From positions 558,001-622,000 of the forward strand of contig NZ_JTDN01000002.1 in NCBI RefSeq assembly GCF_000802385.1: DNA of 64,000 nucleotides. The letters are read 5' to 3'. The position numbers and the translations under genes are program-made. The notes under the pieces were generated by a model. It made no database searches, was not told where the DNA came from, and saw nothing but the letters and a program-made list of their open reading frames with translations. This DNA is from Croceibacterium mercuriale (GTDB lineage Bacteria; Pseudomonadota; Alphaproteobacteria; Sphingomonadales; Sphingomonadaceae). Of the stretch, positions 45,294 through 64,000 are shown in pieces. How positions within the stretch are numbered: the first letter of the stretch is position 1; each line of letters starts with the position of its first letter.

Positions 45294-46061
45294 CTACTGC
45301 AGGTTCACGTAAGCGCCGCCATCGACCAGCAGCGATGCGCCGGTGACGTACTTCGCCAGGTCGGATGCCAGGAACACGATCGGCCCCGCCAGATCGTCCG
45401 GCTCGCCCAGCCGGCCCAGCGGCACGCGCGCGGCCATGCGGTCGCGCTTCTCCTGGTCGGCCAGATCGTCCTTGTTGATGTCCGTCAGGATGGTGCCCGG
45501 CAGCACGGAATTGCAGCGGATGCCATGCCGGCCCAGCGCAATGGCGGTGGACTGCATCAGCGAGTGCAGGCCCGCCTTGGTCGGGGTGTAGTGCGTCTGG
45601 TACTCGCCGCCGACCAGCGCGCTGATGGAGGACACGGCGATGATCGCGCCGCCATGGCCCTGGTTCACCATCTGGTTCGCGGCGGCCTGCACCATGAAAT
45701 AGGCGCCGTGCAGGTTGACCCGCATGGTCCGCTCGAACGTCTCCACCGGCATGTCCAGGAAGGCATGGAAGGGGCAGATGCCGGCATTGTTGACGAACAC
45801 GTCCACCTTGCCAAATGCGTCGGTCGCCGCCTTGACGAAGGCGGTCGCGGTTTCGGGGTCCGACACGTCGCCCTGTACCGCCAGCCCGCGCTGACCCAGT
45901 GCCTCGATCTCCTTTACCGCGGCCTCGGCTCCGGCGGTGTCGCGGCTGAAATTGATCGCCACATCGGCGCCATGGCGTGCAGCGCCGATCGCGGCGGCGC
46001 GGCCGATGCCGGCCGATGCGCCGGTAACGAGCACGGTCTTGCCTTCCAGCAAACGGGTCAT
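45294..46061 (-). CDS. L-rhamnose 1-dehydrogenase-like SDR
   Basis: This 255-aa short-chain dehydrogenase has the cofactor motif TGASAGIGR (13-21), NNAG (91-94), catalytic Ser145/146, Tyr158 and Lys162 in YTPTK, and the C-terminal GASLLVDGGAYVNLQ. In the Sphingomonas non-phosphorylating rhamnose route the first step is oxidation of L-rhamnose to L-rhamnono-lactone by such an SDR (LRA1). Every other enzyme of that route lies nearby, so this assignment is strong by context though not by residue evidence alone. It lies 29 bp downstream of the IclR gene, with GAAGGAGTGG before the ATG. Confidence 0.82.
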   Translation of the reverse strand: MTRLLEGKTVLVTGASAGIGRAAAIGAARHGADVAINFSRDTAGAEAAVKEIEALGQRGLAVQGDVSDPETATAFVKAATDAFGKVDVFVNNAGICPFHAFLDMPVETFERTMRVNLHGAYFMVQAAANQMVNQGHGGAIIAVSSISALVGGEYQTHYTPTKAGLHSLMQSTAIALGRHGIRCNSVLPGTILTDINKDDLADQEKRDRMAARVPLGRLGEPDDLAGPIVFLASDLAKYVTGASLLVDGGAYVNLQ

Positions 46062-46072
46062 TCATCCACTCC

Positions 46073-46087
46073 TTCGTATATGTGAAA
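46073..46087. promoter_or_regulatory. Half-matching copy of the IclR-locus operator
   Basis: TTCGTATATGTGAAA keeps the right half (ATGTGAAA) of the 15-bp motif found at four other places in this locus, but its left half is poor. It lies in the 29-bp gap between iclR and the rhamnose dehydrogenase gene. Confidence 0.3.
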
Positions 46088-46090
46088 GCT

Positions 46091-46918
46091 TCAGGGTTGC
46101 GAAGAACCGCTCCAGCCCAGATCGCCGCTGATCGCCTGCGCGGTGTTCACCACGTCGCGGGTTAGTGCCTCCATCCGGGTGTCGTCCATATATTGCGCGG
46201 CGCTCGACACGCTCAGCGCACCGACGATGCGCCCGCCGACATCGCGCACGGGGGCAGCGACGCAGCGGATCTGGTCTTCGTTCTCCTCCAGATCGAACGC
46301 GCGGCCGATCGCGACATAGCCCTGCATCCGGTCCAGCCACTTGCGCCAGTCGATCGGCACCGCGCCGCCTGCCTGATCGGCCGCGAACAGCGCCTGCCAG
46401 CCGGCCTCGGGCTCGTCGATCAGCAGCGCCTTGCCGAGACCTGTGGCGGTCAGCGCGTGACGGTCGCCCACCCGGCTGGAGATGGCGATCCGCCGCCGGC
46501 CGGGGATCTTGTCGAGGTACAGCACGCGGTCACCGTCACGCACACCCAGATGCACGGTATCCTCCGTCCGGTCGGCCAGCTGCGCCAGCCGCGCATGGGC
46601 AACCTGCACCAGGTCGATCTGCTGCTGCGCGCAGAAGCCCAGTTCCAGCAGCTTGGGGCCGAGCTGATAGCCGCGGCCCGGCGCCATCGCCAGATACCGC
46701 CGCTCGATCAGGGCATTCGCCAGCCGGTGGGTGGTGGAGCGGGTCAGCCCGAGCCCACCCGCCAGGTCGCTGAGCGAGACCGGGCCGGCAACCACCGCCT
46801 CCAGCACGTCCAGCCCGCGCAACAGCGTCTGGCTGCCGGCCGGAACCTTGCCGGCCTTGCCATCATCGTCGCTTTCGCCTTCACCCATGCGGGAGTCGAT
46901 TGACTGGACTTGTTCCAT
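46091..46918 (-). CDS. IclR-family regulator of the rhamnose/RG-I locus
   Basis: The 275-aa product has the IclR N-terminal winged helix (about 28-90: QTLLRGLDVLEAV ... LSDLAGGLGLTRSTTHRLANAL). The effector-binding GAF-like domain follows (about 105-265), with RIAISSRVGDRHALTATGLGKALL and AAPVRDVGGRIVGALSVSS. It lies between the rhamnose dehydrogenase gene and the divergent rhamnonate dehydratase gene. Two operator-like palindromes are in the 144-bp divergent promoter (46933 and 47019), so it probably regulates itself and the locus. The effector is likely a rhamnose-pathway intermediate, by inference. The ATG at 46918 has a weak ribosome site. Confidence 0.9.
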   Translation of the reverse strand: MEQVQSIDSRMGEGESDDDGKAGKVPAGSQTLLRGLDVLEAVVAGPVSLSDLAGGLGLTRSTTHRLANALIERRYLAMAPGRGYQLGPKLLELGFCAQQQIDLVQVAHARLAQLADRTEDTVHLGVRDGDRVLYLDKIPGRRRIAISSRVGDRHALTATGLGKALLIDEPEAGWQALFAADQAGGAVPIDWRKWLDRMQGYVAIGRAFDLEENEDQIRCVAAPVRDVGGRIVGALSVSSAAQYMDDTRMEALTRDVVNTAQAISGDLGWSGSSQP

Positions 46919-46932
46919 CTAATAATACCCTA

Positions 46933-46947
46933 TCCCATTATGTGAAA
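46933..46947. promoter_or_regulatory. IclR-locus operator copy upstream of iclR
   Basis: TCCCATTATGTGAAA, 15 bp, matches the palindromic motif T(C/G)CCA-N5-TG(A/G)(A/G)A. It lies 14 bp before the iclR ATG, where binding would block its transcription or translation start. Confidence 0.5.
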
Positions 46948-47018
46948 GGCGCAAGACCGGACATGCGGGTGTCGCATGGGCGGGTGCACAAGACACATTA
47001 TTTGGATGTAAACCTGCG

Positions 47019-47033
47019 TCCCATGATGTGGGA
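47019..47033. promoter_or_regulatory. IclR-locus operator, best palindromic copy
   Basis: TCCCATGATGTGGGA lies within the longer palindrome CGTCCCATGATGTGGGACG (47017-47035), with 7-bp perfect arms around TGATG. It lies 29 bp before the rhamnonate dehydratase ATG. Confidence 0.6.
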
Positions 47034-47062
47034 CGTATAGGGTTGAGGGGGAGACTGCCAGC

Positions 47063-48250
47063 ATGAATTTGCCCCGGATCAAGCATGTCCGTGCCTTTGT
47101 GGCGCGCGGCAAGGGCGCGGATTACCATGACCAGCCCGGCGGTCACTGGATCGACGACCACATCGCCACGCCGATGGCCCGCTATCCCGAATATCGCGAA
47201 AGCCGGCAGAGCTTCGGCATCAACGTGCTGGGCACGCTGGTGGTGGAGATCGAGGCGGAAGACGGCACGATCGGCTTCGCCGTGACCACCGGTGGCGAGC
47301 CGGCCTGCTACATCGTCGAAAAGCACCTCGCGCGCTTCCTGGAAGGTCGCAATCCGGTCGAGGTCGAGAAGATCTGGGACCAGATGTACTTCTCCACCCA
47401 GTATTACGGCCGCAAGGGCCTGGTCATCAACGCGATTTCCGGCGTGGACCTGGCGCTGTGGGACCTGCTGGGCAAGCTGCGCGGCGAACCCGTCTATCAC
47501 ATGCTGGGCGGCGCCGTGCGCGACGAGCTGCAGTTCTACGCCACCGGCGCGCGGCCTGACGTGGCCAAGGAGCTGGGCTTCATCGGCGGCAAGCTGCCGC
47601 TGCATCACGGCCCGGCCGAAGGGCTGGAGGGGATGGACAAGAACATCGCCCTGCTGGCCGACATGCGCAGCAAGTGCGGCGACGATTTCTGGCTGATGTA
47701 CGATTGCTGGATGTCGCTCGACATCGACTACGCCACCCGGCTGGCGCACCGCGCCTACAAGGAATGCGGCCTGAAGTGGATCGAGGAGGCGCTGAGCCCC
47801 GACGATTACTGGGGCTACCAGCAGCTGAAGAAGAACGCCCCCCCGGGCCTGCTGGTCACCACCGGCGAGCATGAGGCAACCCGCTGGGGCTTCCGCATGC
47901 TGATGGACATGGAATGCTGCGACATCATCCAGCCGGATGTGGGCTGGTGCGGTGGCGTGACCGAACTGATCAAGATCGCCAATTACGCCGACAGCCGCGG
48001 CGTGATGATGATCCCGCACGGATCGTCCGTCTATTCCTACCACTTCGTCATCACGCGCCACAATTCGCCCTTCGCCGAATTCCTGATGATGCATCCGGGG
48101 CCGACGGAAGTGGTGCCGATGTTCGCGCCGCAGCTGCTGGGCGAACCGGTGCCGGTGAACGGCCGCATCCGCGCCAGCGAACTCGACAAGCCCGGCTTCG
48201 GCGTGGAACTGAACCGCGACGTGCCGCTGCACCGCCCCTATACGCGATAA
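47063..48250 (+). CDS. L-rhamnonate dehydratase
   Basis: This 395-aa enolase-superfamily enzyme dehydrates L-rhamnonate to 2-keto-3-deoxy-L-rhamnonate (L-KDR). The N-terminal lid has [20 protein letters not shown] (about 19-38) and [19 protein letters not shown], closely like known rhamnonate dehydratases (RhmD/LRA3). Candidate Mg2+ ligands are Asp214 (YDCWMSLD), Glu241 (WIEEAL) and Glu269 (TGEHEAT), with [10 protein letters not shown] near the C-terminus. The ATG at 47063 follows GAGGGGGAG. It is the first gene of the dehydratase-hydrolase-dehydrogenase-lactonase operon and has a palindromic operator just upstream. Confidence 0.94.
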
Positions 48251-48263
48251 GGATACCAGACCC

Positions 48264-49121
48264 ATGAAGCTGTGCCGTTACGGCCCCGCCGGCGCCGAGA
48301 AGCCGGGCCTGATCGACTCCGACGGGAAGCTGCGCGATCTGTCGGGTACCGTATCCGACATCACCGTCGACACCCTGGCCGACCTCGCCGGCGTCGACGC
48401 TTCCAGCCTGCCGCTGGTCGAAGGGGAGCAGCGCCTGGGCGTGCCGTTCGCCGGCGCGACCAAGATCGTCGCCATCGGCCTGAACTATCGCGACCACGCG
48501 ATCGAATCGAACCTGCCGATCCCGACCGAACCGATGATGTTCATGAAGGCGCTGTCCAGCCTGTCTGGCCCGTATGACGACGTGATGCTGCCCAAGGGCA
48601 GCACGCATGGCGACTGGGAAGTCGAGCTGGGCGTGGTGATCGGCAAGACCTGCCGCTACGTCAGCCAGGAAGAGGCGCTGGACGCCGTGGCCGGCTACAC
48701 GCTGGTGAACGACGTGTCCGAACGCTTCAACCAGAAGGAGCGTGGCAGCCAGTGGTCCAAGGGCAAGGGGCATGACACCTTCTGCCCGACTGGCCCATGG
48801 CTGGTGACGCCGGACGAGGTGGGCGACGCGCAGGAACTGGACATGAGCCTGGACGTCAACGGCCAGCGCATGCAGACCGGCAACACCCGCACGATGATCT
48901 TCAACCTGGCTGAGCTGATCAGCTATGTCAGCGAGTACATCACGCTGCTGCCGGGCGACCTGCTGATCACCGGCACGCCCCCGGGCGTGGGCGAGGGCAA
49001 GAAGCCGGACAAGATCTTCCTGAAGGACGGCGACGTGATGGAACTGGCGATCGAGAAGCTGGGCACGCAGCGCCAGCAGGTCGTGGCGTTCGATCCCGCC
49101 CGCCTGGGGAAGCTGGCATGA
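48264..49121 (+). CDS. 2,4-diketo-3-deoxy-L-rhamnonate hydrolase (FAH family)
   Basis: This 285-aa protein belongs to the fumarylacetoacetate hydrolase family. Typical metal-site segments are IGLNYRDHAIESNLPIP, GDWEVELGVVIGK, YTLVNDVSERF and GDLLITGTPPGVGEGKKP. In the Sphingomonas rhamnose route the LRA6 enzyme of this family splits 2,4-diketo-3-deoxy-L-rhamnonate into pyruvate and L-lactate. The assignment rests on family plus immediate context: rhamnonate dehydratase ends 13 bp upstream and an SDR starts in its stop codon (ATGA). Another FAH-type activity is possible but less likely. Confidence 0.88.
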   Translation: MKLCRYGPAGAEKPGLIDSDGKLRDLSGTVSDITVDTLADLAGVDASSLPLVEGEQRLGVPFAGATKIVAIGLNYRDHAIESNLPIPTEPMMFMKALSSLSGPYDDVMLPKGSTHGDWEVELGVVIGKTCRYVSQEEALDAVAGYTLVNDVSERFNQKERGSQWSKGKGHDTFCPTGPWLVTPDEVGDAQELDMSLDVNGQRMQTGNTRTMIFNLAELISYVSEYITLLPGDLLITGTPPGVGEGKKPDKIFLKDGDVMELAIEKLGTQRQQVVAFDPARLGKLA

Positions 49122-49873
49122 GCACCGCCTATTCCGGCCGCTTCGCCGGCCGCCGTGCGGTGATTACCGGCGGAGCGTCGGGCCTTGGGCTGGCGGTCGC
49201 CACCCGCATCGTGGCGGAGGGCGGCAACGTCGTCCTGTGGGACATGAACCCCGATGCGCTTGCCACCGCCAAGGACCAGTCGGGCGCGACCCATGTGGTG
49301 GCGTTGGACGTGTCTGATCAGGCGGCCGTGGAGCAGGCGGCGGCGGACAGCCGTGATGCGCTGGGCGGCGGGATCGACATCCTGATCGCATCCGCCGGCA
49401 TCACCGGCGCCACCGCACCGGTGCATGAATTCCCGCTCGACAGCTGGCGCCGGGTGATCGACGTCAACGTCAACGGCCTGTTCTACTGCAACCGCGCGAT
49501 CGTGCCGGTCATGCTGGAGGGCGGCTATGGCCGGATCGTCAATGTTGCCAGCGTGGCAGGCAAGGAAGGCAATCCGAACGCCTCCGCCTATTCCGCATCC
49601 AAGGCGGCCGTGATCGGCCTGACCAAGAGCCTGGGCAAGGAACTGGCGGGCAAGGGCGTGATCGCCAACGCGCTGACGCCGGCCACCTTCGAAAGCCCGA
49701 TCCTGGCGCAGCTGCCGCAGAGCCAGGTCGATTACATGCGGTCCAAGATCCCCATGGGCCGGCTGGGCGAAGTGAGCGAAAGCGCCGCGATGGTCTGCTT
49801 CATGGCCAGCGAGGAATGCTCCTTCACCACCGCGTCCGTGTTCGACACGTCGGGCGGACGCACCACCTACTGA
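49118..49873 (+). CDS. 2-keto-3-deoxy-L-rhamnonate 4-dehydrogenase-like SDR
   Basis: This 251-aa short-chain dehydrogenase has TGGASGLGLAVATRI (about 13-27), the NVASVAGKEGNPNAS segment with the catalytic Ser, YSASKAAVIG with catalytic Tyr and Lys, and a C-terminal SVFDTSGGRTTY. By context it is the LRA5 enzyme, which oxidises L-KDR at C4 to the 2,4-diketo compound that the upstream FAH-family enzyme hydrolyses. It overlaps that gene by ATGA and is followed 17 bp later by the lactonase gene. The two SDRs of this locus are only distantly similar, which fits different substrates. Confidence 0.85.
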   Translation: MSTAYSGRFAGRRAVITGGASGLGLAVATRIVAEGGNVVLWDMNPDALATAKDQSGATHVVALDVSDQAAVEQAAADSRDALGGGIDILIASAGITGATAPVHEFPLDSWRRVIDVNVNGLFYCNRAIVPVMLEGGYGRIVNVASVAGKEGNPNASAYSASKAAVIGLTKSLGKELAGKGVIANALTPATFESPILAQLPQSQVDYMRSKIPMGRLGEVSESAAMVCFMASEECSFTTASVFDTSGGRTTY

Positions 49874-49890
49874 TACCGGGAGTTCAGGCG

Positions 49891-50796
49891 ATGCGCGTTC
49901 CCTTCGTGGATGCCCACATCCATCTGTGGCAGCTGGATCGCCTGCACTACCCCTGGCTGATGCCGCCATTCGCCGATGACGGCCCCAACGGGAGCGTCGA
50001 GGCGATTGCGCGGCATTATGCCCCGGCCGACTACCTGGCCGATCTCGACGGCTGGAACCTGGCCGGCAGCGTGCATGTGGATGCCGGCGCCGACGCGGTC
50101 CATGCGGTGGAGGAAACCGAGTGGCTGGAAGGGCTGGCCGCCGGAACCGGCGTGCCCACCGGCATCGTCGCCTATGCTCCGCTGCACGATCCCGCCGTCG
50201 GCAATCTGCTGGCGCGGCAGGCGGGGCACCGCCGGGTGCGCGGCATCCGCCAGATCGTGAACTGGCATGCCGATCCGCGCCGCAGCTACACCCCGCAGGA
50301 CTGGACGCGCGACCCGCAATGGCAGGCGGGCTATGCCCTGCTCGCCAGGCACGGGCTGCGCTTCGACCTGCAGTGCTACCCCGCGCAGATGCCGGGAATG
50401 GCCGAAGTGGCGGCAAGGAACCCGGACGTGCCGGTGATCATCAATCACATGGGCATGCCGGTGCTGGGCGATCCCGATGGCATGGCTGACTGGCGCACCG
50501 GCATGGCGGCGCTGGCGGCGCAGCCGCATGTGGCGGTGAAGCTGTCGGGACTGGGCTTCGTGGACCGCCACTGGACCCCCGATGCGCTGCGGCCGCTGCT
50601 GCTGGAGGCGATCGACCTGTTCGGCACGCATCGCTGCATGTTCGCCAGCGACACGCCGACCGACAAGCTGTTCGCGCCACTGGGCACCTATCTGGAATTC
50701 TACGAATCCATCACCGACACGCTGTCGGATGATGAGCGGCGCGACCTGTGGGGGCGCAACGCCAACCGGATCTACGGCCTGGGCCTGACGATCTGA
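49891..50796 (+). CDS. L-rhamnono-gamma-lactonase (amidohydrolase family)
   Basis: This 301-aa protein is a TIM-barrel amidohydrolase of the COG3618 type. It starts MRVPFVDAHIHLWQLDRLHYPWL with the metal-binding HIH pair (about 9-11). It also has GIRQIVNW, VIINHMGMP and CMFASDTPTDKL with the terminal catalytic Asp. Members open sugar lactones; the rhamnose route needs L-rhamnono-1,4-lactonase (LRA2) between the dehydrogenase and dehydratase, which fits this gene. The ATG at 49891 follows GGGAGTTCAGGCG; the longer reading from 49816 overlaps the SDR gene and is rejected. Confidence 0.86.
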   Translation: MRVPFVDAHIHLWQLDRLHYPWLMPPFADDGPNGSVEAIARHYAPADYLADLDGWNLAGSVHVDAGADAVHAVEETEWLEGLAAGTGVPTGIVAYAPLHDPAVGNLLARQAGHRRVRGIRQIVNWHADPRRSYTPQDWTRDPQWQAGYALLARHGLRFDLQCYPAQMPGMAEVAARNPDVPVIINHMGMPVLGDPDGMADWRTGMAALAAQPHVAVKLSGLGFVDRHWTPDALRPLLLEAIDLFGTHRCMFASDTPTDKLFAPLGTYLEFYESITDTLSDDERRDLWGRNANRIYGLGLTI

Positions 50797-50867
50797 TGAC
50801 CTGACGATCTGCCCGGACGCCGACACCCGCACAAGCGGGGCGGAGTTGTCATGAGAGGACCACATCA

Positions 50868-53630
50868 ATGCCCATCAGCCGCCGCCGCTTCGTGCAATCC
50901 ACCGCGCTCGCCAGCTGTGCCGCCCTCGCCATCAGCCCGGGCGCGCTGCTGGCCCAAGGCGCACGCAGCCGGACGCAGGCGCTGCGCTGGCTGGATGGCT
51001 CCCCGCCCCCGGCGCAGGACGGGGTGACCTGCGGCGCCGCCTGGCCGCAGGGCGCGCTGCCCGCCCGCACCAGCTTCGCCGCCATCGCCGCCAGTGGCGA
51101 TGCCGTGCCGATGCAGAGCTGGGTCACCGCCCGCTGGCCGGACGGCACGGTCAAGTGGACCGCCCACGCCTTTCCCGGCGGCAGCGGCGATCCCGCCACC
51201 CTGACCATCGCCCCTGGCCGCCCCGCCGCGCCGGCAGAGCCGGTCCGCGCGGTCGTGCGTGGCGACGCGATCGAGATCAGCAACGGCCCGGTGGTCTGGA
51301 CAGTGGGCCGCAGCGGGCAGGCCATCATCCGCTCTGCCCGGCGCGGTGATGCCGAGGTGCTGCGCGACGTGGGCCTGACCGCCAGCAGCCAGAGCGAGGC
51401 CGAGGCCGAACTGGGCGAGGGCACGCCGCTGACCCGGTTCGACGGGATGATCCAGAGCGCCGAGATCGAGCAGGGCGGCCCCGTGCGCGTCACGATCCGT
51501 GTGTCCGGCGTTCACCAGGGTGCCGGGCGCGAATGGCTGCCCTTCACGCTGCGGCTGTATTTCCACGCCGGATCCCCGGCCGTGCGGATCGTCCATTCCT
51601 TCGTGTTCGATGGCGATGCCGCGACCGACTTCATCCGCGGGCTGGGCTTGACCGGGCAGGTGCCGCTGCGCGGCGCCACCTACGACCGCCATGTGCGCTT
51701 CGCCGGCAGCAATGACGGCATCTGGGCGGAGGCGGTGCGCCCGCTGACCGGCCTGCGCCGCGATCCGGGCGCCGCCTTCCGGCAGGCGCAGGTGGCCGGG
51801 CAGGCCACGCCGCCGCTGGAGCAGATGGGCGACAGTGTGCGCGAGAACCTGCAGTTCATTCCCGAATGGGGCGACTTCACCCTCTCGCAGCCCAATGCCG
51901 ACGGCTTCACCATCGTGAAGCGCACCAAGGCCGGCCATGGCTGGATCGACGTGGATGGCGGCGAGCGCGCCCGCGGGCTGGGCTATGTCGGCAGCCCGAG
52001 CGGCGGCGTCGCCTTCGGGCAGGGCGATTTCTGGCAGCGCTGCCCGGTGCGGCTCGACATCCGCGATGCGCACACCGATAGCGCCACCTTCCGCCTGTGG
52101 TACCATGCGCCCGATGCGCCGGCGATGGACCTGCGCTTCTACCATGACGGGCTGGGCATGGAGTCCTACGTCGACCAGAACCGCGGGCTGGACGTCACCT
52201 ACGAGGATTACGAGCCCGGCTACGGATCGCCGACCGGCATCGCCCGCACCACCGAGTTCACCCTGTGGGCATTGCCCGCGACGCCTTCGGCCGAGCGGCT
52301 GGCGCAGATGGCGCATAACCTCGCCACGCCTGCCCGGCTGATGCCGGAACCGGCTGCGCTGCACGCCGCCGGCCTGTTCGGCGACTGGTCGCCGGTCGAT
52401 CGCTCCACGCCCGCAAAGGCGGAGATCGAGGACCAGAACCACTTCCTGCTGACCTTCTACCGCGATCAGGTGGAGCAGCGCCGGTGGTACGGCTTCTGGT
52501 CCTATGGCGACTGGATGCATTCCTACGACCGGGACCGGCATGTCTGGAAGTACGACATCGGCGGGTTCGCCTGGGCCAACAGCGAGCTCTCGCCCGATCT
52601 GTGGCTGTGGTATTCGTACCTGCGCAGCGGCGATGCGGCGACCTTCCGCCTGGCCGAGGCGATGACCCGGCACACGGGCGAGGTCGACTGCTACCATCTG
52701 GGCCCATGGAAGGGGCTGGGCACGCGCCATGGCGTGCAGCACTGGGCGGACAGCTCCAAGCAGCCGCGCGTCTCCACCGCCGCCTACCGCCGGATCTACT
52801 ATTACCTGACCGCGGACGAGCGCACCGGCGACCTGCTGCGCGAGGCGCTGGCGGGCGACGAGGCGCTGACCCGCGTGGATATCGGCCGCAAGGTCGGTGC
52901 GCGCCCCGGTGGCGTGATCGCCGCGGGCACCGGGGCCACGGTGCGGTCCAACCCGCGCGCCGGCGAGGTGGAGATGAGCTTCGGCACCTCGTGGTGCTCG
53001 CTGGCGGCGGCGTGGCTGACGGAATGGGAGCGGACCGGCGACACGCGCTGGCGCGACCGGATCGTGGCGGGGATGACCACCATTGCCGCCCTGCCCAAGG
53101 GGTGGTTCGCGGGCGGCGCCAATTACGACCTTGCCACCGGGCGCTTCACCGGGCCGGGGGACGAGGTCAGCATGAGCCATCTCAATGCCGTGTTCGGCGC
53201 GGTCGAGGTGAACTCCGAGCTGCTGAGCCTGCTGGACGTGCCGGCCTATCGCCGCACCTGGCTGGATTACTGCGTCGCCTACAACGCATCGGACGAGGAG
53301 TTCCAGGCGATGACCGGCGCCCGCCGGCGCGGGCGCAATCTGGGGCAGGGCCATTCCCGCCTGACCGCCTATGCCGCACGCCAGCTGGGCGATGCGGCGC
53401 TGGCGCAGCGTGCCTGGAGCGAATTCTACGACGCGGATGCCGGTCTGCGCATGGATGTGGCGGGCAGCCAGCGCCAGCTGCACGGCCCGGCCGTGCTGCG
53501 CCCCGTGGACGAGGTGGCGAATGTCAGCACCAATGGCGCCAGCCAGTGGGGCCTTGCCGCGATCCAGAATCTGGCGCTGATCGGCGATCAGCTGGGAACG
53601 CTGACGCCGGTCTTACCGCCCCGCCGATAG
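50868..53630 (+). CDS. Tat-exported putative rhamnogalacturonan exolyase (PL26-like)
   Basis: The 920-aa precursor begins with a Tat signal (MPISRRRFVQSTALASCAAL, cleaved near LLAQG). It lacks obvious Pfam-type catalytic signatures to the eye. Its layout is an N-terminal beta-rich half (about 40-470) and a C-terminal alpha/alpha-barrel-like half (about 480-900) with many aromatic, His and Asp residues (WYGFWSYGDWMHSYDRDRHV, WKGLGTRHGVQHWAD). This resembles bacterial Tat-signal proteins related to fungal rhamnogalacturonan exolyase PL26. The context (GH105, rhamnose route, CE12) supports an RG-I backbone lyase. The exact family is not certain. It starts 71 bp after the lactonase gene. Confidence 0.6.
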   Translation: MPISRRRFVQSTALASCAALAISPGALLAQGARSRTQALRWLDGSPPPAQDGVTCGAAWPQGALPARTSFAAIAASGDAVPMQSWVTARWPDGTVKWTAHAFPGGSGDPATLTIAPGRPAAPAEPVRAVVRGDAIEISNGPVVWTVGRSGQAIIRSARRGDAEVLRDVGLTASSQSEAEAELGEGTPLTRFDGMIQSAEIEQGGPVRVTIRVSGVHQGAGREWLPFTLRLYFHAGSPAVRIVHSFVFDGDAATDFIRGLGLTGQVPLRGATYDRHVRFAGSNDGIWAEAVRPLTGLRRDPGAAFRQAQVAGQATPPLEQMGDSVRENLQFIPEWGDFTLSQPNADGFTIVKRTKAGHGWIDVDGGERARGLGYVGSPSGGVAFGQGDFWQRCPVRLDIRDAHTDSATFRLWYHAPDAPAMDLRFYHDGLGMESYVDQNRGLDVTYEDYEPGYGSPTGIARTTEFTLWALPATPSAERLAQMAHNLATPARLMPEPAALHAAGLFGDWSPVDRSTPAKAEIEDQNHFLLTFYRDQVEQRRWYGFWSYGDWMHSYDRDRHVWKYDIGGFAWANSELSPDLWLWYSYLRSGDAATFRLAEAMTRHTGEVDCYHLGPWKGLGTRHGVQHWADSSKQPRVSTAAYRRIYYYLTADERTGDLLREALAGDEALTRVDIGRKVGARPGGVIAAGTGATVRSNPRAGEVEMSFGTSWCSLAAAWLTEWERTGDTRWRDRIVAGMTTIAALPKGWFAGGANYDLATGRFTGPGDEVSMSHLNAVFGAVEVNSELLSLLDVPAYRRTWLDYCVAYNASDEEFQAMTGARRRGRNLGQGHSRLTAYAARQLGDAALAQRAWSEFYDADAGLRMDVAGSQRQLHGPAVLRPVDEVANVSTNGASQWGLAAIQNLALIGDQLGTLTPVLPPRR

Positions 53631-53640
53631 GAGCGGGGTG

Positions 53641-53669
53641 GTCCGGGATGTCGTACGGACATCCCGGAC
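53641..53669. terminator. Perfect 12-bp hairpin between convergent genes
   Basis: GTCCGGGATGTC (53641-53652) pairs perfectly with GACATCCCGGAC (53658-53669) around GTACG. It lies between the lyase gene (+) and the transporter gene (-). It is a probable bidirectional terminator without a U-tract. Confidence 0.55.
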
Positions 53670-53678
53670 GGATGGCCA

Positions 53679-55193: not shown

Positions 55194-55293
55194 GGCCGCT
55201 GCTCTCCTGTTGGTGCGGCCGGTCTGCTGCCTGCGCGCGGGTTCGATGTTGCGGCAATGGCCGGCGGGTCATGTCCCCGCCGGCCGCTCGCCA

Positions 55294-56409: not shown

Positions 56410-56437
56410 GTCTGGGTAACTCCTGTTGGAAATGCGG

Positions 56438-57670
56438 TCAGCGACGGATCGGCTGGCCCAGCACGCCATAATCGCGTGCCATCTGACGGTAGAGATTAAC
56501 GAATGCGGGATCGGCGTCGAACCGGCCGCCTGGATTGACCCGGTGTTCGGCCGGCGGTCCGGTCGTGGGGGTGGCGCCGGGCGCCTCTGCGCTGTTCAGC
56601 CCCTGGCTCAGCAGGTCGGGCTTGGGGCCTTCGCCGGCGCTGACGCCGTCCTGCAGGAAGATCGCCTCCTGGTGGCGGGTCGGCTCCCAGATGAAGCTGC
56701 CCCAGCCATTGGGATGCGCCTGCACCAGGTCGTTGAGGTAGCGCTTGCGGCTGGAATATTCGATCGCGAAGAAGCCGTGATCGGGATAGCGGCGGCTGAA
56801 TTCCGCAAAGGTCCGCTCCCAGTCGCCCTGCGCCTGCTGCTGGTAGCAGGACATGCCCAGCGCATCGAAGCGCACGTCGCGTTCGATCAGGCTGTCGGTC
56901 CAGTGGCGGGTGATCTGCCAGTGGCGGCCCAGATGATTGTGCAGCGCCACCGGCACGTCGGGCAGCACCGCTCGGCTGGCGGCGATGCCGGCCTTCAGCA
57001 GCGCGGCGAAGCGGTCCATGCCGCCGGGCATGGCCTCGCTCATATGCTCGGCATCGGTGACCGGGTTGCCGGTGGCGAAGGGCAGCGGGATGCGCCCTTC
57101 CGGCCACAGCATGCCGAACGTGGTCTCGTTGCCCAGCACCACCATGTCGGGGGCGACGCCCGCGGCCTTCATCCTCGACAGGGCGTCATCCGTGTGCCGG
57201 TGGACCGCATCGACCAGCTGCGTGAAGGGCAGGTCGGCCCAGGCGGCCGGCTTGTTCTGCTTCTGCGGATCGGCCCAGGTGTCGGAATAATGCAGCGTCA
57301 GCGACAGGTGCATGCCGGCCGTGCGGATGCGGCGGGCAAAGGCGATGGTGCTGTCGATGCTGCCCCACGGCCCGCCCGGCTTGCCCCGCGAGTAGCCGTT
57401 TTCCGGATTGACGAAGGTGCGCAGCTTGATGGCGTTGAACCCGGCATCGGCGAAGATCGCCAGCGGATCGCGCTGCACGCCATCCTGCCAGTAGGTGGCG
57501 CCGATCGCCTCGTCCTCCGGCACCCAGGTGATGTCCGCGCCCAGCAGGTACGGCCAGGGTCGCCTGCCGCCCGCGGTCTGCGCCGGGACGGTCGCGCAGG
57601 CGCCCAGCGCCGCGCTACCGGCAGCAAGGCCCGCAGCGGCGGCGAACTGACGGCGGGACAGATCGATCAT
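56438..57670 (-). CDS. GH53 endo-beta-1,4-galactanase, Tat lipoprotein
   Basis: GH53 enzymes cut the beta-1,4-galactan side chains of RG-I. The 410-aa precursor has a Tat motif LSRRQFAAAAG and lipobox LGAC (Cys25), so it is likely membrane-anchored. The catalytic part has GADITWVPEDEA (44-55), FNAIKLRTFVNPENGYS, LSLTLHYSDTWADPQKQNKP, acid/base Glu182 in VVLGNETTFG and a candidate nucleophile Glu304 in FFAIEYSSR. The ATG at 57670 overlaps the rhaM stop (ATGA). The in-frame reading to 57754 is rejected as it enters rhaM. Confidence 0.92.
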   Translation of the reverse strand: MIDLSRRQFAAAAGLAAGSAALGACATVPAQTAGGRRPWPYLLGADITWVPEDEAIGATYWQDGVQRDPLAIFADAGFNAIKLRTFVNPENGYSRGKPGGPWGSIDSTIAFARRIRTAGMHLSLTLHYSDTWADPQKQNKPAAWADLPFTQLVDAVHRHTDDALSRMKAAGVAPDMVVLGNETTFGMLWPEGRIPLPFATGNPVTDAEHMSEAMPGGMDRFAALLKAGIAASRAVLPDVPVALHNHLGRHWQITRHWTDSLIERDVRFDALGMSCYQQQAQGDWERTFAEFSRRYPDHGFFAIEYSSRKRYLNDLVQAHPNGWGSFIWEPTRHQEAIFLQDGVSAGEGPKPDLLSQGLNSAEAPGATPTTGPPAEHRVNPGGRFDADPAFVNLYRQMARDYGVLGQPIRR

Positions 57671-57981
57671 GCGAGATGGAACATCGGGGTCAGCGGCCAT
57701 TCGGACGGCTTGTTGTCCGGTTCCACCTGCATGATGTCGGCCATGTGGTCCCACCAGCGGCGCATCACCGGATGACCGGGCAGCGCATCGCGCTTGTTCT
57801 GCTCCGCCAGGCGCAGGGTGGCGAACAGCGCATCGGTCTGCTCGTCCAGGAAGATGTGGTAGTCGCTGATGCCTGCATCGTGCAGCAGGTCGACCAGCTC
57901 CGGCCAGATCTCGTCATGCCGGCGGCGATATTCGTCGGCCATGCCGGGCAGCAATTGCATACGGAAGGCGTGAACCTGCAC
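57667..57981 (-). CDS. rhaM: L-rhamnose mutarotase
   Basis: RhaM interconverts the alpha and beta anomers of L-rhamnose, helping the dehydrogenase step. The 104-aa protein has the family segments FRMQLLPGMADEYRRRHDEIWPEL (about 6-29), with the catalytic His22, HDAGISDYHIFLDEQTDALFA and the C-terminal VMRRWWDHMADIM. It overlaps the GH53 gene by ATGA. An operator-like palindrome (58051-58065) lies 70 bp before the ATG. Confidence 0.93.
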   Translation of the reverse strand: MQVHAFRMQLLPGMADEYRRRHDEIWPELVDLLHDAGISDYHIFLDEQTDALFATLRLAEQNKRDALPGHPVMRRWWDHMADIMQVEPDNKPSEWPLTPMFHLA

Positions 57982-58050
57982 CGGGCGCTCCTCTCTTGTC
58001 TCCGCCCGTGCTTATGCCGCATGGGGGCGGATGCGTAAAGTGGGACTGCT

Positions 58051-58065
58051 TCCCAATTTATGGAA
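58051..58065. promoter_or_regulatory. IclR-locus operator copy upstream of rhaM
   Basis: TCCCAATTTATGGAA, with flanking TTCC...GGAA symmetry, fits the same 15-bp motif as the copies at 46933 and 47019. It lies in the 93-bp gap between the esterase gene and rhaM. Confidence 0.5.
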
Positions 58066-58074
58066 TGGAGCGGC

Positions 58075-59256
58075 TCAGCTGCCTGCCTGCCCGGCGTTCG
58101 ACCGGATGATGCTGGGCGGCAGGGTGAAGCTGGCAGGCAGCGGCGGGTTGGCCGGGTCGTAGGTGCGGAACGCGGGCGCGACATGCTCGCCCAGTTCCGG
58201 CACCTGCGCCATGCCGGCCGCGATGATCCGCGCCAGCTGGTACGCGCCATAGGTGTTGTGATGCGTCCGGTCGCGGCCTTCGTCGGCAAAGGCCTTGGCG
58301 GCTTCGTCCGGCCCCAGCGCCTCGTAGAAGGCAATGGTGCCTTCGGTCAGTTCCACCAGCGGCACGGACTGCGCCCGTGCGACCTGCCGCACGGCGGCGG
58401 GATAGCCGGCCAGCGACGGGACGATCCGCCCGGCCTCGTCATAGTTGCGGCGTTCGGGCGAGTTGATCAGCACCGGGGTCGCCCCGCGCAGCCGCACCTC
58501 CGCGATATAGGCGGCGAGCCAGGCATCATAGGTACTGCCGGCCGCGACATAGGTCTGCGGCCATTGCGCCTTCTGGTCGTTATGGCCGAACTGCATGGCC
58601 ACGACGTCACCCGGCTGCACCAGCGACAGCACCTTGGCCAGGCGGTAATTGGTGGCGAAGCTCTTCAGCGTCTCCCCCGACCAGGCATGGTTGGCCACCG
58701 CGATGTCGTCCGCCATGAAGCGGGTGAGCATCTGCCCCCAGCTGGCGGCGGGATCGTCCGGCTGGTCGGTGACGGTGGAATCGCCCAGCAGGTAGAGCGT
58801 CGGCACGGTGACCGGTTCCACCGACACGGCCCGCACCGCGGCACGATCGCTCAGGAACTCGAGTGTCAGCCGGTCATCCCAGTTGAGGCTGGTCTGCTCG
58901 CGCGCGGACAGCCGGACGCCGCTGGCGCCGGGGGCATTGCGCTCGGGCGCGGGCAGGGTCGCGTCGCGGACATTGACGATGAAGCTGTGCCGGGCGGTCT
59001 CGCCAGCGGCGACGGCCACGTCCTCCAGCATCAGGCGACGTGATTCCGCCATCACGCTGATCCGGGCGGTGCCGGTGATCGTCAGCGTGACGCGGTAATT
59101 GCCGGGCGCGGCCCTGACCGACCAACGCTGCGCATCCTCCCACCCTTCGCCCGTCGCATCGCTGTAGGCGGCGGCGTCGGTCAGGTCGTGCTGCACGGGT
59201 TGCGCCATGGCGTGGGTCGCGCCCAGCAGGGCCAGCGCGATCAGCGCCGCCTTCAA
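58075..59256 (-). CDS. Rhamnogalacturonan acetylesterase (CE12-like SGNH hydrolase)
   Basis: The 393-aa precursor has a signal peptide (about 1-19, ending AMAQ), an N-terminal beta domain (about 25-150) and a C-terminal SGNH esterase domain with Ser160 in [10 protein letters not shown], Asn226/Asp227 in FGHNDQK and the DxxH pair Asp329/His332 in GRDRTHHN. This matches rhamnogalacturonan acetylesterases (CE12), which deacetylate RG-I so the lyase can act. The start is a TTG (59256) overlapping the LldD stop (TTGA); no ATG gives a signal peptide in place. It is translated together with the lactate dehydrogenase gene. Confidence 0.88.
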
Positions 59257-60410
59257 TGCCCGTCGCCGGGGATGTGCAGCATGGTCGGGCTGATGTCGGC
59301 GATCCTGGTGGTGCCGGTCAGTGCCATGGCGACGCGCATCTCCGCGCGCATCAGGTCCAGCATGTGCGTGATCGCGGTCTCGCCACCAGCGGCCAGGGCG
59401 TAGACCCAGGCGCGGCCCAGCAGCACGCAATCGGCGCCCAGCGCCAGCAGGCGGATGACGTCGAGGCCGGAACGGACCCCGCCATCGGCCATCACCACCA
59501 GCTGGTTACCCACGGCATCGGCGATCGGCGGCAATGCGCGGGCGCTGGACAGCGCGCCGTCCAGCTGACGCCCGCCATGGTTGGACACCACGATGCCGTC
59601 CGCCCCGGCCTGCACCGCCTCGCGCGCATCTTCCGGATCGAGGATGCCCTTGATGACGATCTCGCCCGCCCACTGGCTGCGGATCCAGGCGATGTCGTCC
59701 CAGCCCACGGCTGGTTCGAAATTGTCCCGCATCCAGGCAAAGAAGTCCTCCAGCCCGGTGTTCGGCCCCAGCACCGGCGCGACGTTGCCCAGCGCGTGCG
59801 GGCGGCCATGCACGCCGACATCCCACGCCCAGCGCGGCCGGCGCATCGCCTGGATCATGCGTCGTGCACCGCCCGCCAGCCCCGGCGCACCCGCCAGGCC
59901 GGAACGGTAATCGCGATAGCGGCTGCCCGGCACCGGCATGTCGACGGTGAACACCAGCGTGGTGCAGCCGGCTGCGGCCGCCTGCGCCAGCAGGTCGCGC
60001 ATGAAGCCGCGGTCGCGGATCATGTAGAGCTGGAACCAGAACGGCTTCTTCGCCGCCGCCGCAACCTCCGGAATGGGGCAGGCGGACACGGTGGACAGGG
60101 TGAAGGGAATGCCCGCTTTGTCCGCCGCGCGCACCGCCTGCACCTCGCCGCGGCGGGCGTTCATGCCGGCCAGGCCGATCGGGGCCAGCGCCACCGGCAT
60201 GGCCAGTTCCTGCCCGAACAGGGTGGTGCTGAGGTCGATCTGCGACACGTCCTTCAGCACCCGCTGGCGCAGTGCGATCGCCTCCAGATCGGCGACGTTC
60301 CGTTTCAGCGTAACCTCGGCATAGGAACCCCCGTCGATATATTCGAACAGGAAGTTCGGCAGGCGACGCCGGGCGAGGTCGCGGTAGTCGATCGCAGAAG
60401 CGGCCTTCAT
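59253..60410 (-). CDS. lldD: FMN-dependent L-lactate dehydrogenase-like enzyme
   Basis: This 385-aa protein is an FMN-dependent alpha-hydroxy acid dehydrogenase of the LldD type. It has [15 protein letters not shown] (15-29), [26 protein letters not shown], Lys254 in IVIKGI, and catalytic His278 and Arg281 in [10 protein letters not shown]. LldD oxidises L-lactate to pyruvate with quinone. L-lactate is one of the two products of the rhamnose route encoded here, which explains its place in the operon. The ATG at 60410 follows GAGAGGACTATC. Other alpha-hydroxy acids remain possible substrates. It starts the minus-strand operon that runs down to the transporter. Confidence 0.87.
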
Positions 60411-60438
60411 GATAGTCCTCTCAAATCCGGCCCTGTGA

Positions 60439-60453
60439 TGCCACAATATGAGA
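60439..60453. promoter_or_regulatory. IclR-locus operator copy in the lldD/GH2 divergent promoter
   Basis: TGCCACAATATGAGA fits the 15-bp motif with some deviation. It lies 28 bp before lldD and about 100 bp before the GH2 gene, in a 143-bp divergent gap. Confidence 0.4.
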
Positions 60454-60553
60454 TCGCTTGCTAGATTTTGATAAAAGTCGGCCGCATGGCAATTGCCAGA
60501 TTGGTCAGGACAATTTACCTTCTCGGTCAACCAGAACCGGCGGAGAGGCCTTG

Positions 60554-63500
60554 ATGCGTTTGAAGTTCCTTGCCCTTGCCGGCGCCTGCCTAGCGCTGCC
60601 GGCTCCGATCATGGCGCAGGACGCCTCCGTCCACGTCGCCAGCCCGCGCCAGACCTTCAACTTCAACAGCGACTGGCGGATGCACCATGGCGAGCTGCAA
60701 GGCGCCTCCGCACCGCGCTTCGACGATGCCGGCTGGCAGGCGGTGGTGCTGCCCAATGCCTTCAACGAGAAGGAGGCTTTTGCCCGCGACATCCGCGAAC
60801 ATTCCACCGGCATCACCTGGTACCGCAAGCGCTTCACCCTGCCGGCGGACGCACCGGGCAAGGCGCTGCTGGAGTTCGAGGGCGTGCGCCAAGCGGCCGA
60901 GGTGTGGGTCAACGGGACGCAGGTCGTGCTGTCGGAGAACGGCGCGATGGCCTTCGGTGCGGATATCACCGCGGCGCTGCGTGCCGGCGAGAACGTGGTC
61001 GCGGTGCGGATCGACAATTCGTGGACCTACAAGGAGCGGGCCACCGGCAGCCCGTTCCAGTGGAACGATCGCAATTTCAACGTGAACTATGGCGGCATCA
61101 CCAAGAATGTCCGCCTCCACCTGACCGGTCCGACCTACCAGACGCTGCCGCTCTGGTCCGGCCTCGGCACCACCGGGCAATATGTCTGGGCGGATGGATT
61201 CGACCTGCCGACCCGCAGCGCCACGGTCCATGCGCAGAGCGAGGTGCGCAACGAGGCCGGCGCGCCGCGCACGCTGACCCTGCGGGCGGAGCTGCGCGAT
61301 CGCGACGGCACCTTGCGCGCCACGTTCGACAGCGCGCCGCAGGTGGTCGGTGCCGGGGCGACCGCCACATTGGCGGCGCAGCAGCAGGTGGCCGACCTGA
61401 CCTGGTGGAGCTGGGGCCATGGCTACCTCTACACCGTCACCACCACCCTGCTTGACGGCGACCGGCCGATCGACAGCGTCGATGTGGTCACCGGCTTCCG
61501 CAAGCTGGATTTCGGGCAGGGCATGGTGCAGCTGAACGGCCGCACGATCCAGATGCACGGTTATGCCCAGCGTTCTTCCAACGAATGGCCGGCGGTGGGC
61601 GTGTCGATCCCGCCGTGGATCAGCGATTTCTCCAACCAGCTGATGGTCGACAGCGGCGGCAATCTGGTGCGCTGGATGCACATCACCCCGTCGAAGCAGG
61701 ACGTGGAATCCGCCGATCGCGTCGGCCTGCTGCAGGCCATGCCGGCCGGCGATGCCGAGCGCGATCCCGATGGCCGGCGCTGGGAATTGCGAACGGAGCT
61801 GATGCGCGACGCCATCATCTACAACCGCAACAATCCCAGTGTGGTGTTCTGGGAAGGCGGGAACGAGAGCATCAGCGAGGCGCACATGGCCGAGCTGAAG
61901 GCGATCCGCGACCGGTATGATCCCCATGGCGGGCGGGCGATCGGCAGCCGCGAGATGCTGGACAGCACGATCGCCGAGTATGGCGGGGAGATGCTGTACA
62001 TCAACAAGAGCGGCGACATCCCCATGTGGTCGATGGAATATTCGCGCGATGAATCGGCCCGGGCGTATCAGGACAACTGGACCCCGCCGTTCCATCAGGA
62101 CGCGCCCGACTACAACCGCAACGGCGACAGCCAGGCGGCGGAGGATGTGCGGCGCTGGTGGGAATATTACCGCGTGCGTCCGGGCACCGGCACTCGCGTC
62201 AGTTCGGGCGGGGTCAACATCATCTGGTCCGACAGCAACACCCATTTCCGCGGCGACAACAATTACCGCCGCTCCGGCGAGGTCGATGCGGTGCGCCTGC
62301 CAAAGCCCAGTTTTTTCGCCCATCAGGTGATGTGGAACGGCTGGGTCGATCCGGCGCCGGGCACATATATCGTCGGCCACTGGAACTACGCCCCCGGCGT
62401 GGTGAAGCCGCAGATGGTGGTTTCCACCGGCGAGCGGGTGGAGCTGTTCCTGAACGGCCGCTCGCTGGGCCTGGGGGAGCGGAGCAACGGCTTCCTGTTC
62501 ACCTGGCCGGACGTGGTGTGGAACGGCGGTGTGCTGGAGGCGGTGGCCACCCATGCGGATGGCGCCGTGACCCGGCACACGGTGGAGACGACCGGCGCGC
62601 CGGCCGCACTGAAGCTGACGCCGCATACCAGCCCCCGCGGGCTGGTGCTGGACGGCGCCGACATCGCGCTGGTCGATGTGGAAGTGGTGGATGATGCCGG
62701 GCGCCGCGTGCCGGTGGCCGACAACATGATCCGCTGGACGGTGGAAGGCCCGGCCGAGTGGCGCGGTGGCATCGCGCAGGGCGACAGCTCCGGCAAGCCG
62801 CGCGCGGCGGAAGCGGTACAGCCGGAGAACATCCCCGGCACCACCAGCCATCCGGGCACCGCGCGGGAGGAGGACAACTTCATCCTGTCGCCGAACCTGC
62901 CGGTTGAAGGCGGCATCAACCGCGTGCTGGTGCGCGCCGGTACCGGCAGCGGGACCGTGCGGCTGACCGCGATTGCGGACGGCATGGCCCCGGTCACGAT
63001 CGAGCTGCCAACGGCGCAACCCGAAGCCGCCAGTGCCGGCCTGTCGCGCGACTTCCCCGAACGGCACCAGACCGCCAGCCTGTCGCGCGGACCGACGCCG
63101 AACGGGCCGTCCTTCACGCCGACCCGCACCACGCACCAGCCGGTGGCCGTCAGCGCGGCCGACAATGCGGGCGAGGTCGGTTTCGCGCATGACGACAACG
63201 AACTGACCCGCTGGTCCAGCACCGGTACGCCCGATGGGGCCGTAATCAGCTTCGATTTCGGCAAACCGGTGCTGTTGAGCGAGGTGGACCTGAAGCTGGT
63301 CGGCTGGCGCACCCGCGCCTACCCGCTGCGGTTCGAACTGGACGGCCGGACCATCTGGGAAGGCGATACGGAGCGGACGCTCGGCTACGCCAACGTCGCC
63401 TTCCCCCCGGCGCAGGGCCGGGTGCTGCGCATCGTGCAGACCGCGCCGGTCGCCGATCGCGACGCGTTCGGGCAGATCGTGGAACTTGCCACCGCGCGGC

Positions 63501-63592
63501 AGGCCGGCGACACCGGTGCGAACGAGGTGCCGCCCGGCTGGAACCTGGGCATCGTGGAGGCAGACTTCCACGGACCGGCGGGCGCCTGGTAG
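60554..63592 (+). CDS. GH2-family exported beta-galactosidase-like enzyme with C-terminal discoidin-type domain
   Basis: The 1012-aa precursor has a signal peptide (about 1-21, ending IMAQ). GH2 domains follow in order: sugar-binding jelly roll (about 28-185, [19 protein letters not shown]), immunoglobulin-like (about 190-300) and TIM barrel (about 305-530), with acid/base Glu438 in [11 protein letters not shown] and candidate nucleophile Glu495 in [10 protein letters not shown]. The DUF4982/Ig-like region (about 560-690) has [21 protein letters not shown]. The C-terminus (about 870-990) looks like an F5/8 discoidin carbohydrate-binding fold. It would remove terminal beta-galactose from RG-I side chains. 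GGAGAGG precedes the ATG. Confidence 0.85.
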
Positions 63593-63605
63593 ACGGGAGC
63601 AGGGC

Positions 63606-64000
63606 ATGAAGGTCGGACGGGCATTTGCGGGCGGGGTGCTGCTGTGGCTGGCGCTGCCGGCGGCGGCGCAGCAGGATACGGCGGAGACGCACTGGATTGC
63701 CGGCTGGACGCAGCCGATGATGGCGGCGGCGGAGGCGGGCAGCGCACCGCCTGCGGACAGCACGGTACGCGTGCAGGTGCTGGTCACCGCCACCGGCCCG
63801 CGCATCCGCCTGCGCTTCAGCAACGCCTTCGGGACGGAGCCGCTGCTGCTGCAACAGGTGCGCGTGGCCCATGCCACGCAGCCGGGGCAGGACCTGGTCG
63901 ATCCGGCCAGCACGCAGGCGGTCGCCTTCGGCGGTTCCGCGTGGGTCATCATCCCGCCGGGCGCGGAGTACCTGTCCGATCCGGTGGCGTTGCCGGCGAC
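63606..64000 (+). CDS. Exported SGNH/GDSL hydrolase (partial, cut by the right edge)
   Basis: The first 131 codons of a secreted protein are present. A signal peptide (MKVGRAFAGGVLLWLALPAAAQ) is followed by HWIAGWTQPM and VRVQVLVTATGPRIRLRFSN, then AFGTEPLLLQQVRVAHA. This N-terminal beta domain is typical of a family of SGNH/GDSL esterases whose catalytic domain lies further on, outside the window. It starts 13 bp after the GH2 gene in the same direction, with GGGAGCAGGG upstream, so it is probably co-transcribed. In this locus a carbohydrate deacetylase role is a reasonable guess. Confidence 0.7.
   Translation, partial: MKVGRAFAGGVLLWLALPAAAQQDTAETHWIAGWTQPMMAAAEAGSAPPADSTVRVQVLVTATGPRIRLRFSNAFGTEPLLLQQVRVAHATQPGQDLVDPASTQAVAFGGSAWVIIPPGAEYLSDPVALPA

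Follow-up and report, generated by a model that had tools for sequence, protein, structure and literature searches.

The window analyzed here is a stretch of 64,000 nucleotides (C2:558001-622000, where C2 is a contig label) from the 3.48-Mb genome of Croceibacterium mercuriale, which is assembled in 10 contigs. Between window positions 45294 and 63592 we found 14 genes, comprising genes for L-rhamnose oxidation, a PL26 rhamnogalacturonan lyase, a GPH transporter, GH105, GH53, and GH2 enzymes, a CE12-like esterase, and an IclR-family regulator. The gene families that a first-pass annotation had placed in this cluster were confirmed at their positions by hidden Markov models. Its outline of the cluster holds for this gene set but not for the right-hand end, which it had put at position 64000: the cluster opens a pectin island of ~96 kb that runs on to rhaT (C2:698458-699552; PF06379, 220 bits) and ends at C2:699552, 77.6 kb past C2:622000. 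We regard the locus as real and the reading developed below as likely: at a probability of about 0.8, the cluster belongs to a predicted Croceibacterium regulon for the utilization of pectin rhamnogalacturonan I (RG-I) and L-rhamnose under the IclR-family regulator.

The gaps between the genes suggest five units: rhaDH-iclR (minus strand), dehydratase-hydrolase-SDR-lactonase-PL26 (plus), rhaM-GH53-GH105-GPH (minus), lldD-SGNH (minus), and GH2 (plus). The gaps from the dehydratase to the lactonase gene are 13, -4, and 17 bp, and the GPH gap in the rhaM unit is 100 bp. A gap of 71 bp separates the lactonase gene from the PL26 gene that follows it on the same strand, an arrangement that ties the lyase to rhamnose catabolism. 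Genes were called with a codon-score script that gives approximate start codons, so the distances from operators to genes are approximate as well.

Three genes of the L-rhamnose route are NCBIfam equivalogs that score over their cut-offs: an L-rhamnose 1-dehydrogenase of the Lra1 type (RhaDH, 45294..46061, minus strand; NF053807, 464 bits, cut-off 400), an L-rhamnonate dehydratase of the MR_MLE family (47063..48250, plus strand; NF011968, 750 bits, cut-off 393), and a 2,4-didehydro-3-deoxy-L-rhamnonate hydrolase of the FAH family (48264..49121, plus strand; NF053535, 522 bits, cut-off 500). Together they point to the oxidative, diketo-hydrolase pathway of L-rhamnose degradation. Two further plus-strand genes of the same unit match general families and reach no specific NCBIfam cut-off. 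These are an SDR (49118..49873), by its operon position the probable 2-keto-3-deoxy-L-rhamnonate 4-dehydrogenase, and an amidohydrolase-type lactonase (49891..50796; PF04909; under the NCBIfam fuconolactonase cut-off), which is probably an L-rhamnonolactonase. The L-rhamnose mutarotase RhaM (57667..57981, minus strand; PF05336) scores barely under its NCBIfam cut-off (98.9 vs. 99.6 bits), and an LldD-type FMN L-lactate dehydrogenase (59253..60410, minus strand) matches NF033901 with 588 bits (cut-off 550).

The PL26 rhamnogalacturonan exolyase (50868..53630, plus strand) has all three PcRGLX Pfam domains (602, 481, and 92 bits), and its alignment with the PcRGLX structures (5xq3 and others; 722 bits) extends over query residues 35-910, i.e., the full-length three-domain architecture. 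Exo-cleavage giving unsaturated galacturonyl-rhamnose is its predicted function. The protein starts with a twin-arginine signal (SRRRF). Eight relatives (G125, G045, G043, G123, G057, G286, G171, and G029; G numbers denote genomes) likewise show, by eye, a twin arginine near the PL26 start; none is visible in the PL26 frames of G052 and G155, whose starts are unclear. The neighboring GPH-family sugar transporter (53679..55193, minus strand; PF13347 [MFS_2]; TIGR00792 under cut-off) would have a RhiT-like role. The GH105 protein (55294..56409, minus strand; PF07470 [GH88/105]), a candidate RhiN-like unsaturated rhamnogalacturonyl hydrolase, has no signal peptide by eye. It matches the Protein Data Bank (PDB) entries 3qwt (531 bits), 3pmm (518 bits), and YteR (91 bits), and two of the three closest entries are named GH105 family proteins. 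Asp143 of YteR (1nc5; Asn in 2gh4), which we take to be the catalytic residue, aligns with the Asp of its MWDD stretch. Asp88 of YteR (1nc5) aligns with an Asn, which is also present in 3qwt, 3pmm, and 4xuv, and this suggests that the mechanism of this GH105 branch may differ from that of YteR.

The remaining enzymes of the cluster are candidates for work on RG-I side groups. The GH53 endo-beta-1,4-galactanase-like protein (56438..57670, minus strand) matches PF07745 at profile positions 2-232 of 340 and PDB entries of GH53, and its start looks, by eye, like a twin-arginine translocation (Tat) signal with a lipobox. An SGNH/GDSL esterase (58075..59256, minus strand; PF13472) carries GDS, GHND, and DRTH motifs. 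Its description as a CE12-like candidate RG acetylesterase draws on these motifs and on a weak, partial match to the RG acetylesterase 1deo (E 4e-7, residues 153-228), the best PDB match being YxiM. The GH2 galactosidase-like protein (60554..63592, plus strand) has GH2 domains with GGNE and MEYS stretches and what looks by eye like a Sec-type start; its C-terminal F5/8-type match is weak and falls under the cut-off (26.4 vs. 28.2 bits). A second GDSL esterase (PF13472; C2:621636-622853, plus strand) is cut by the window end, its first part occupying 63636..64000. On the other side the cluster is adjoined (43837-45257) by a GntR/FCD gene (44499-45257), possibly a second regulator, and a NUDIX-like gene, both of which keep their place in G125 and G045. 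The sole tRNA that ARAGORN calls in the window, tRNA-Ala(cgc) at 41466-41541 (minus strand), lies within a gene-like frame (40796-41797, minus strand) and is probably a false call.

The IclR-family regulator (46091..46918, minus strand; HTH_IclR and IclR_C domains) is the proposed controller of these genes. Alignment of the divergent promoter between iclR and the dehydratase gene reveals two conserved 15-bp inverted repeats, proposed operators 1 (46933..46947) and 2 (47019..47033, before the dehydratase operon). The same repeat is present in each of the cluster's three upstream promoter regions, the further copies lying before the rhaM-GH53-GH105-GPH operon (58051..58065; score 20.4; found also in G125 and G045) and in the lldD/GH2 divergent promoter (60439..60453; matrix score 19.8); all four are given on the plus strand. 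The scores come from a matrix trained on the iclR/dehydratase promoter alone (11 sites from six genomes) and used with a threshold of 13 bits. Across 180 kb of this genome, eight matches reach at least 13 bits, all eight intergenic and six of them non-training sites, compared with an expectation of 1.0 from 10 Markov shuffles. The non-training sites outside the cluster are at rhaT (C2:699623, 95 kb from iclR), PL11 (C2:655068), GH31/GH35 (C2:693606), and the second TonB receptor (C2:645100). None of the real upstream regions of 49 genes from the window's first 40 kb scores above 3.0 bits. Outside the island, a 20.3-bit site (C2:117958) precedes a TonB receptor and a GH43-like gene. A plain search for TYCCANNNNNTGRRA across the whole genome was rejected as too loose, with 26 of 35 rows outside the island (five rows in the backward control). 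A tighter pattern, written post hoc and thus biased to the known sites, finds four exact places, three of them in the cluster. With one mismatch allowed it gives 42 rows (nine in the backward control) at 40 distinct places, eight of which are in the 96-kb island, including one within the PL11 gene.

We compared this arrangement with a family set of 298 genomes and a class sample of 376 genomes, each including our own; related genomes are not independent, and all genome counts are uncorrected for kinship. In the family, PL26 (PF21346) occurs in 11 genomes (seven of 96 genera), and the GH105 orthologue (E ≤ 1e-100) in the identical 11. A pair this rare is a marker of a niche rather than a trait of the family. 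The rhamnonate dehydratase (E ≤ 1e-150) is found in 18 genomes, among them all 11 with PL26. IclR (E ≤ 1e-60) is found in 13: 10 of the 11 PL26 genomes together with G110, G217, and G293 (hypergeometric P = 2.4e-15 for co-occurrence with PL26, kinship uncorrected). The class sample has PL26 in three genomes, all of which have IclR; four further genomes have IclR (E ≤ 1e-50) without PL26. In 20-40 kb around PL26 in the 10 other PL26 genomes of the family, GH105, GPH, and RhaM lie within the compared stretch in seven (G052, G125, G045, G057, G171, G155, and G029). In G043 and G123, PL26 and the rhamnose operon adjoin each other on short contigs and GH105 is found on a different contig; G286 has GH105 on the same contig as PL26 but far from it.

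These distributions bear on the possibility that an ordinary rhamnose operon stands by chance beside unrelated hydrolases with which it forms no functional unit. Seven of the 18 genomes with the dehydratase do lack PL26, and among 22 named alphaproteobacterial loci, described below, the dehydratase gene is in most cases not found within 10 kb of PL26. However, PL26 follows the rhamnose operon in the same direction after a gap of 71 bp. In G045 the genes from RhaDH to the second esterase form one block amid other genes; the 60 kb examined there show this unit on its own, lacking the right-hand part of the island, and in it a TonB receptor gene separates GPH from PL26. Since PL26 and the GH105 orthologue moreover share the same 11 of 298 genomes, the cluster is no chance grouping, and we consider a fortuitous neighborhood very improbable.

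The repeat is conserved along with the genes. Forty matches of at least 13 bits, nine of them training sites, occur in 523,591 bases from the 10 relatives, whereas three shuffles give eight, eight, and seven. Thirty-eight of the 40 are intergenic, although intergenic sequence makes up 10% of the total. The sites precede IclR/dehydratase, rhaM, lldD, PL26, PL11, receptors, and GH35; one in G043 stands before a frame that appears, by eye, KduI-like. At the dehydratase promoter, the repeat scores at least 15.1 bits in all 13 genomes with IclR, including all seven held out of training, and at most 10.4 bits in all five genomes that have the dehydratase but no IclR. The named relatives are the best 80 of 144 found by name, and 22 of these are Alphaproteobacteria by title. 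A site of at least 14 bits is present in 18 of 21 such loci (L046-L066; the shuffle control was not run on these 21), and the eight from Caulobacter all have it 97-99 bp ahead of PL26. A regulator with HTH_IclR and IclR_C domains thus adjoins targets at which a palindromic putative operator is conserved, as expected of an IclR-family regulon; binding of IclR to the repeat, its sign, and its effector are predicted.

The RG-I and rhamnose locus might instead be controlled through this repeat by a different regulator, such as the GntR/FCD protein beside RhaDH (44499-45257), with IclR merely riding along. The GntR/FCD gene adjoins the cluster and occupies the same position in G125 and G045, and in G155 there are sites although no close IclR is present. 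Against this, the repeat is kept in G043, G123, G052, and G029, while the stretches compared show GntR matches of only ~30% (G043 and G123) or none (G052 and G029). The repeat instead follows IclR at the dehydratase promoter, where the 13 of 13 genomes with IclR are opposed to 0 of 5 without it. We therefore consider control by GntR/FCD or another such regulator unlikely.

The first-pass annotation had contrasted the locus with Bacteroidetes-style loci for its lack of a SusC/SusD pair and of galacturonate genes, and had proposed looking for a TonB receptor and galacturonate genes past 64 kb. Both were found there, and the contrast, as far as it draws on a missing receptor and missing galacturonate genes, is wrong for the genome: the apparent lack arises because the window edge cuts the island. 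The first genes past the window encode a GDSL esterase, an MR_MLE dehydratase, a TonB receptor that begins 2.3 kb past the edge, GH5-like and GH43 proteins, a dicarboxylate symporter, and an efflux-like set. The next part of the island holds GH2, LacI, UxaC, UxaA, a UxuB-type mannitol dehydrogenase, an MFS transporter, a second receptor, GH43-like, GH127, and PL11 proteins, and a DUF6250 protein. The last part holds GDSL, PL10, CE8, GH3, GH95, a fucose-type oxidation set, a second PL10, a third receptor, GH31, GH35, and RhaT. KduI is encoded elsewhere on the contig (C2:75456-76292, ~530 kb away), beside GH28 and a GH88-DUF4861 protein, and nearby are a receptor-like and a PL10-like gene, both identified by similarity. 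According to the part of PMC12838403 available, GH105 products deliver DHU to KduI or DhuI, and the distant KduI gene fits this. TonB receptors also occur in the homologous loci of relatives (confirmed by Pfam in G045 and G052, by similarity in others).

No SusD family was found among the island proteins scanned with Pfam, a scan that did not take in every open reading frame and was accompanied by no genome-wide SusD search. The genes outside the scan are C2:657866-658801, 676912-678528, and 697203-698417, as well as efflux, TetR, and TrmL-like genes. As far as scanned, a SusCD-like locus of the Bacteroidetes polysaccharide utilization type was thus rejected, there being no SusD-type lipoprotein beside a receptor. 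A GH106 assignment for the 1037-residue protein at C2:662190-665303 was likewise rejected, as Pfam shows just weak GH2-N-type and MG2 matches.

Several other features of the island deserve mention. The DUF6250 protein (C2:655111-655728) is beside PL11 and is encoded near PL26 in several sphingomonads; it is a candidate unknown member of the RG-I system. The fucose-type oxidation set (C2:668368-676908; GH95, MR_MLE, SDRs, MFS, and Zn-ADH) has its own, second IclR regulator. A set resembling an efflux pump by eye (MFS, membrane-fusion, and outer-membrane factor; C2:630784-634839) lies within the island and is kept in C. ferulae. To the right of the island (C2:715000-730000), GC content falls to 61% and transposase-like genes are visible by eye, possibly indicating a mobile region.

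The island also bears on the substrate, which might be another glycan of rhamnose and uronate (an arabinogalactan protein, a gum, or a microbial exopolysaccharide) rather than RG-I. The GH105 and GH2 families each act on several substrates, an NCBIfam model labels the GH105 protein BglB, and arabinogalactan could be served by GH53, GH43, and GH127. PL26 and PL11, however, are both rhamnogalacturonan lyase families and both are present, and the island further holds PL10, CE8, GH127, GH53, UxaC, and UxaA. We thus regard a glycan other than RG-I as quite unlikely.

The gene content of cluster and island suggests the following pathway for RG-I, in which substrates, transport, regulator binding and its sign, and the inducer are predictions; the sequence itself shows the gene families, their synteny and co-occurrence, and the conserved repeat. 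The TonB receptor past the window would import RG-I pieces, from which periplasmic esterases, galactanase, and galactosidases would remove side groups. PL11 (past the window) and Tat-exported PL26 would cleave the backbone to unsaturated galacturonyl-rhamnose, which the GPH symporter would carry into the cytoplasm for cleavage by GH105. RhaM, RhaDH, lactonase, dehydratase, SDR, and diketo hydrolase would in turn convert rhamnose to pyruvate and L-lactate, the latter to be oxidized by LldD. Unsaturated galacturonate would go to KduI elsewhere on the chromosome, and free galacturonate to UxaC, the UxuB-type reductase, and UxaA of the same island. The IclR-family regulator, which is probably a repressor that a rhamnose or rhamnonate intermediate releases, would bind the 15-bp repeat at the three cluster promoter regions and at rhaT, PL11, GH35, and receptor genes. 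It had been suggested from the window that RG-I is depolymerized, that an unsaturated disaccharide is taken up, and that rhamnose is set free in the cytoplasm; this scheme fits the genes and the Erwinia RhiT-RhiN-RhiE precedent, and what falls away is the contrast drawn from missing receptor and galacturonate genes.

A number of observations weigh against the regulon as proposed. The lactonase and SDR are assigned their roles from position, and NCBIfam NF051900 labels the GH105 protein beta-galactosidase BglB (478 bits vs. a cut-off of 420); among the literature matches listed we found nothing on this label for GH105. In this genome, no site of at least 13 bits stands directly before PL26 or GPH, both of which would depend on read-through, and the receptor site at C2:645100 is weak and ~0.5 kb from the called start of the second TonB receptor. 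Three of the 21 named loci have no site. G155 has PL26 and GH105 and sites before a TonB receptor and rhaM, yet its best IclR match is 44%. G436, with a 57% IclR, has no site within ~1.5 kb, and in G470, which has PL26, the best score beside IclR is just 13.0 bits. In G347, a 25.6-bit site (L180:2401-2415) lies by a 51% IclR among kinase-/aldolase-like and sugar-acid-like genes (by eye), not rhamnose-like ones. This strong site in another neighborhood suggests that a wider subgroup of IclR proteins may share the repeat as a common operator code. Finally, within 10 kb of PL26 in the 22 named loci we found GH105 in two, GPH in one, and the dehydratase in one (RhaM and PL11 in nine each). The compact layout is therefore not general but a feature of Croceibacterium, and the individual pieces recur more widely than the layout.

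Detailed RG-I loci are known from gut Bacteroidetes, soft-rot enterobacteria, and Bacillus. The enzymes and pathway found here are of known kinds; what is new is a testable predicted regulon with regulator, putative operator, and members. In the open-licence PMC literature, the matches listed include no sphingomonad RG-I locus and no IclR-type rhamnose or RG-I regulator beyond E. coli YfaX/RhmR, so the proposed IclR control of a whole RG-I pathway has no counterpart among them. A defined alphaproteobacterial regulon with its operator would offer a direct sequence route to RG-I users, would help to assign unknown genes (DUF6250, GH2, and esterases) to the pathway, and would allow the coordination of the rhamnose and galacturonate halves to be tested.

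A non-phosphorylated L-rhamnose route was reportedly described in Sphingomonas sp. by Watanabe and Makino in 2009, and is said to include the diketo-hydrolase branch. The RhaDH, dehydratase, and diketo hydrolase found here resemble that route by NCBIfam equivalogs, but here the route is joined to a PL26 lyase in one apparent operon, close to LldD and within a pectin island. TonB-dependent carbohydrate utilization loci occur in Proteobacteria, and our island is like these in having a receptor without SusD among the proteins scanned; it differs in its RG-I substrate set and lineage.

In Erwinia, as far as the passages of PMC3870299 go, rhiTN-rhiE combines a transporter, an unsaturated-galacturonyl hydrolase, and a lyase under rhamnose control (RhaS). 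The predicted system shares with it a lyase outside, a dedicated transporter of unsaturated rhamnogalacturonides, a cytoplasmic RhiN hydrolase, and joint control with rhamnose catabolism (PMC3870299). Erwinia uses the AraC-type RhaS and a phosphorylated rhamnose route, whereas here we find an IclR-type regulator, PL26 and PL11, TonB receptors, and an oxidative route predicted to lead to pyruvate and lactate. An IclR-type regulator beside rhamnonate dehydratase has a precedent in E. coli YfaX (RhmR), an IclR-like regulator of rhamnonate catabolism according to the part of PMC12445098 available, in which related E. coli operons consist of transporter, aldolase, and dehydratase. We liken the two by role, not by orthology; here the repeat is found at lyases, an esterase, hydrolases, receptors, and RhaT. 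The 2013 survey covers ten groups and describes LacI, DeoR, and AraC regulators of rhamnose and rhamnogalacturonan utilization (RhaR, RhiR, RhgR, and the LacI-type RhmR of Chloroflexus); its main text has no mention of IclR, and the passages available do not name Sphingomonadales among the lineages (PMC3870299). In some lineages these regulons place oligosaccharide uptake and rhamnose catabolism under joint control, as proposed here. We think it reasonably probable that IclR, in an RhmR-like role, is the common switch of an RG-I/L-rhamnose regulon across PL26-bearing Alphaproteobacteria (Sphingomonadales, Caulobacter, and the Niveispirillum/Azospirillum group), with one conserved 15-bp inverted repeat ahead of receptors, PL26, PL11, rhaT, and both the RhiN-like and the oxidative rhamnose operon; this would be a type of regulator outside the LacI/DeoR/AraC set of 2013.

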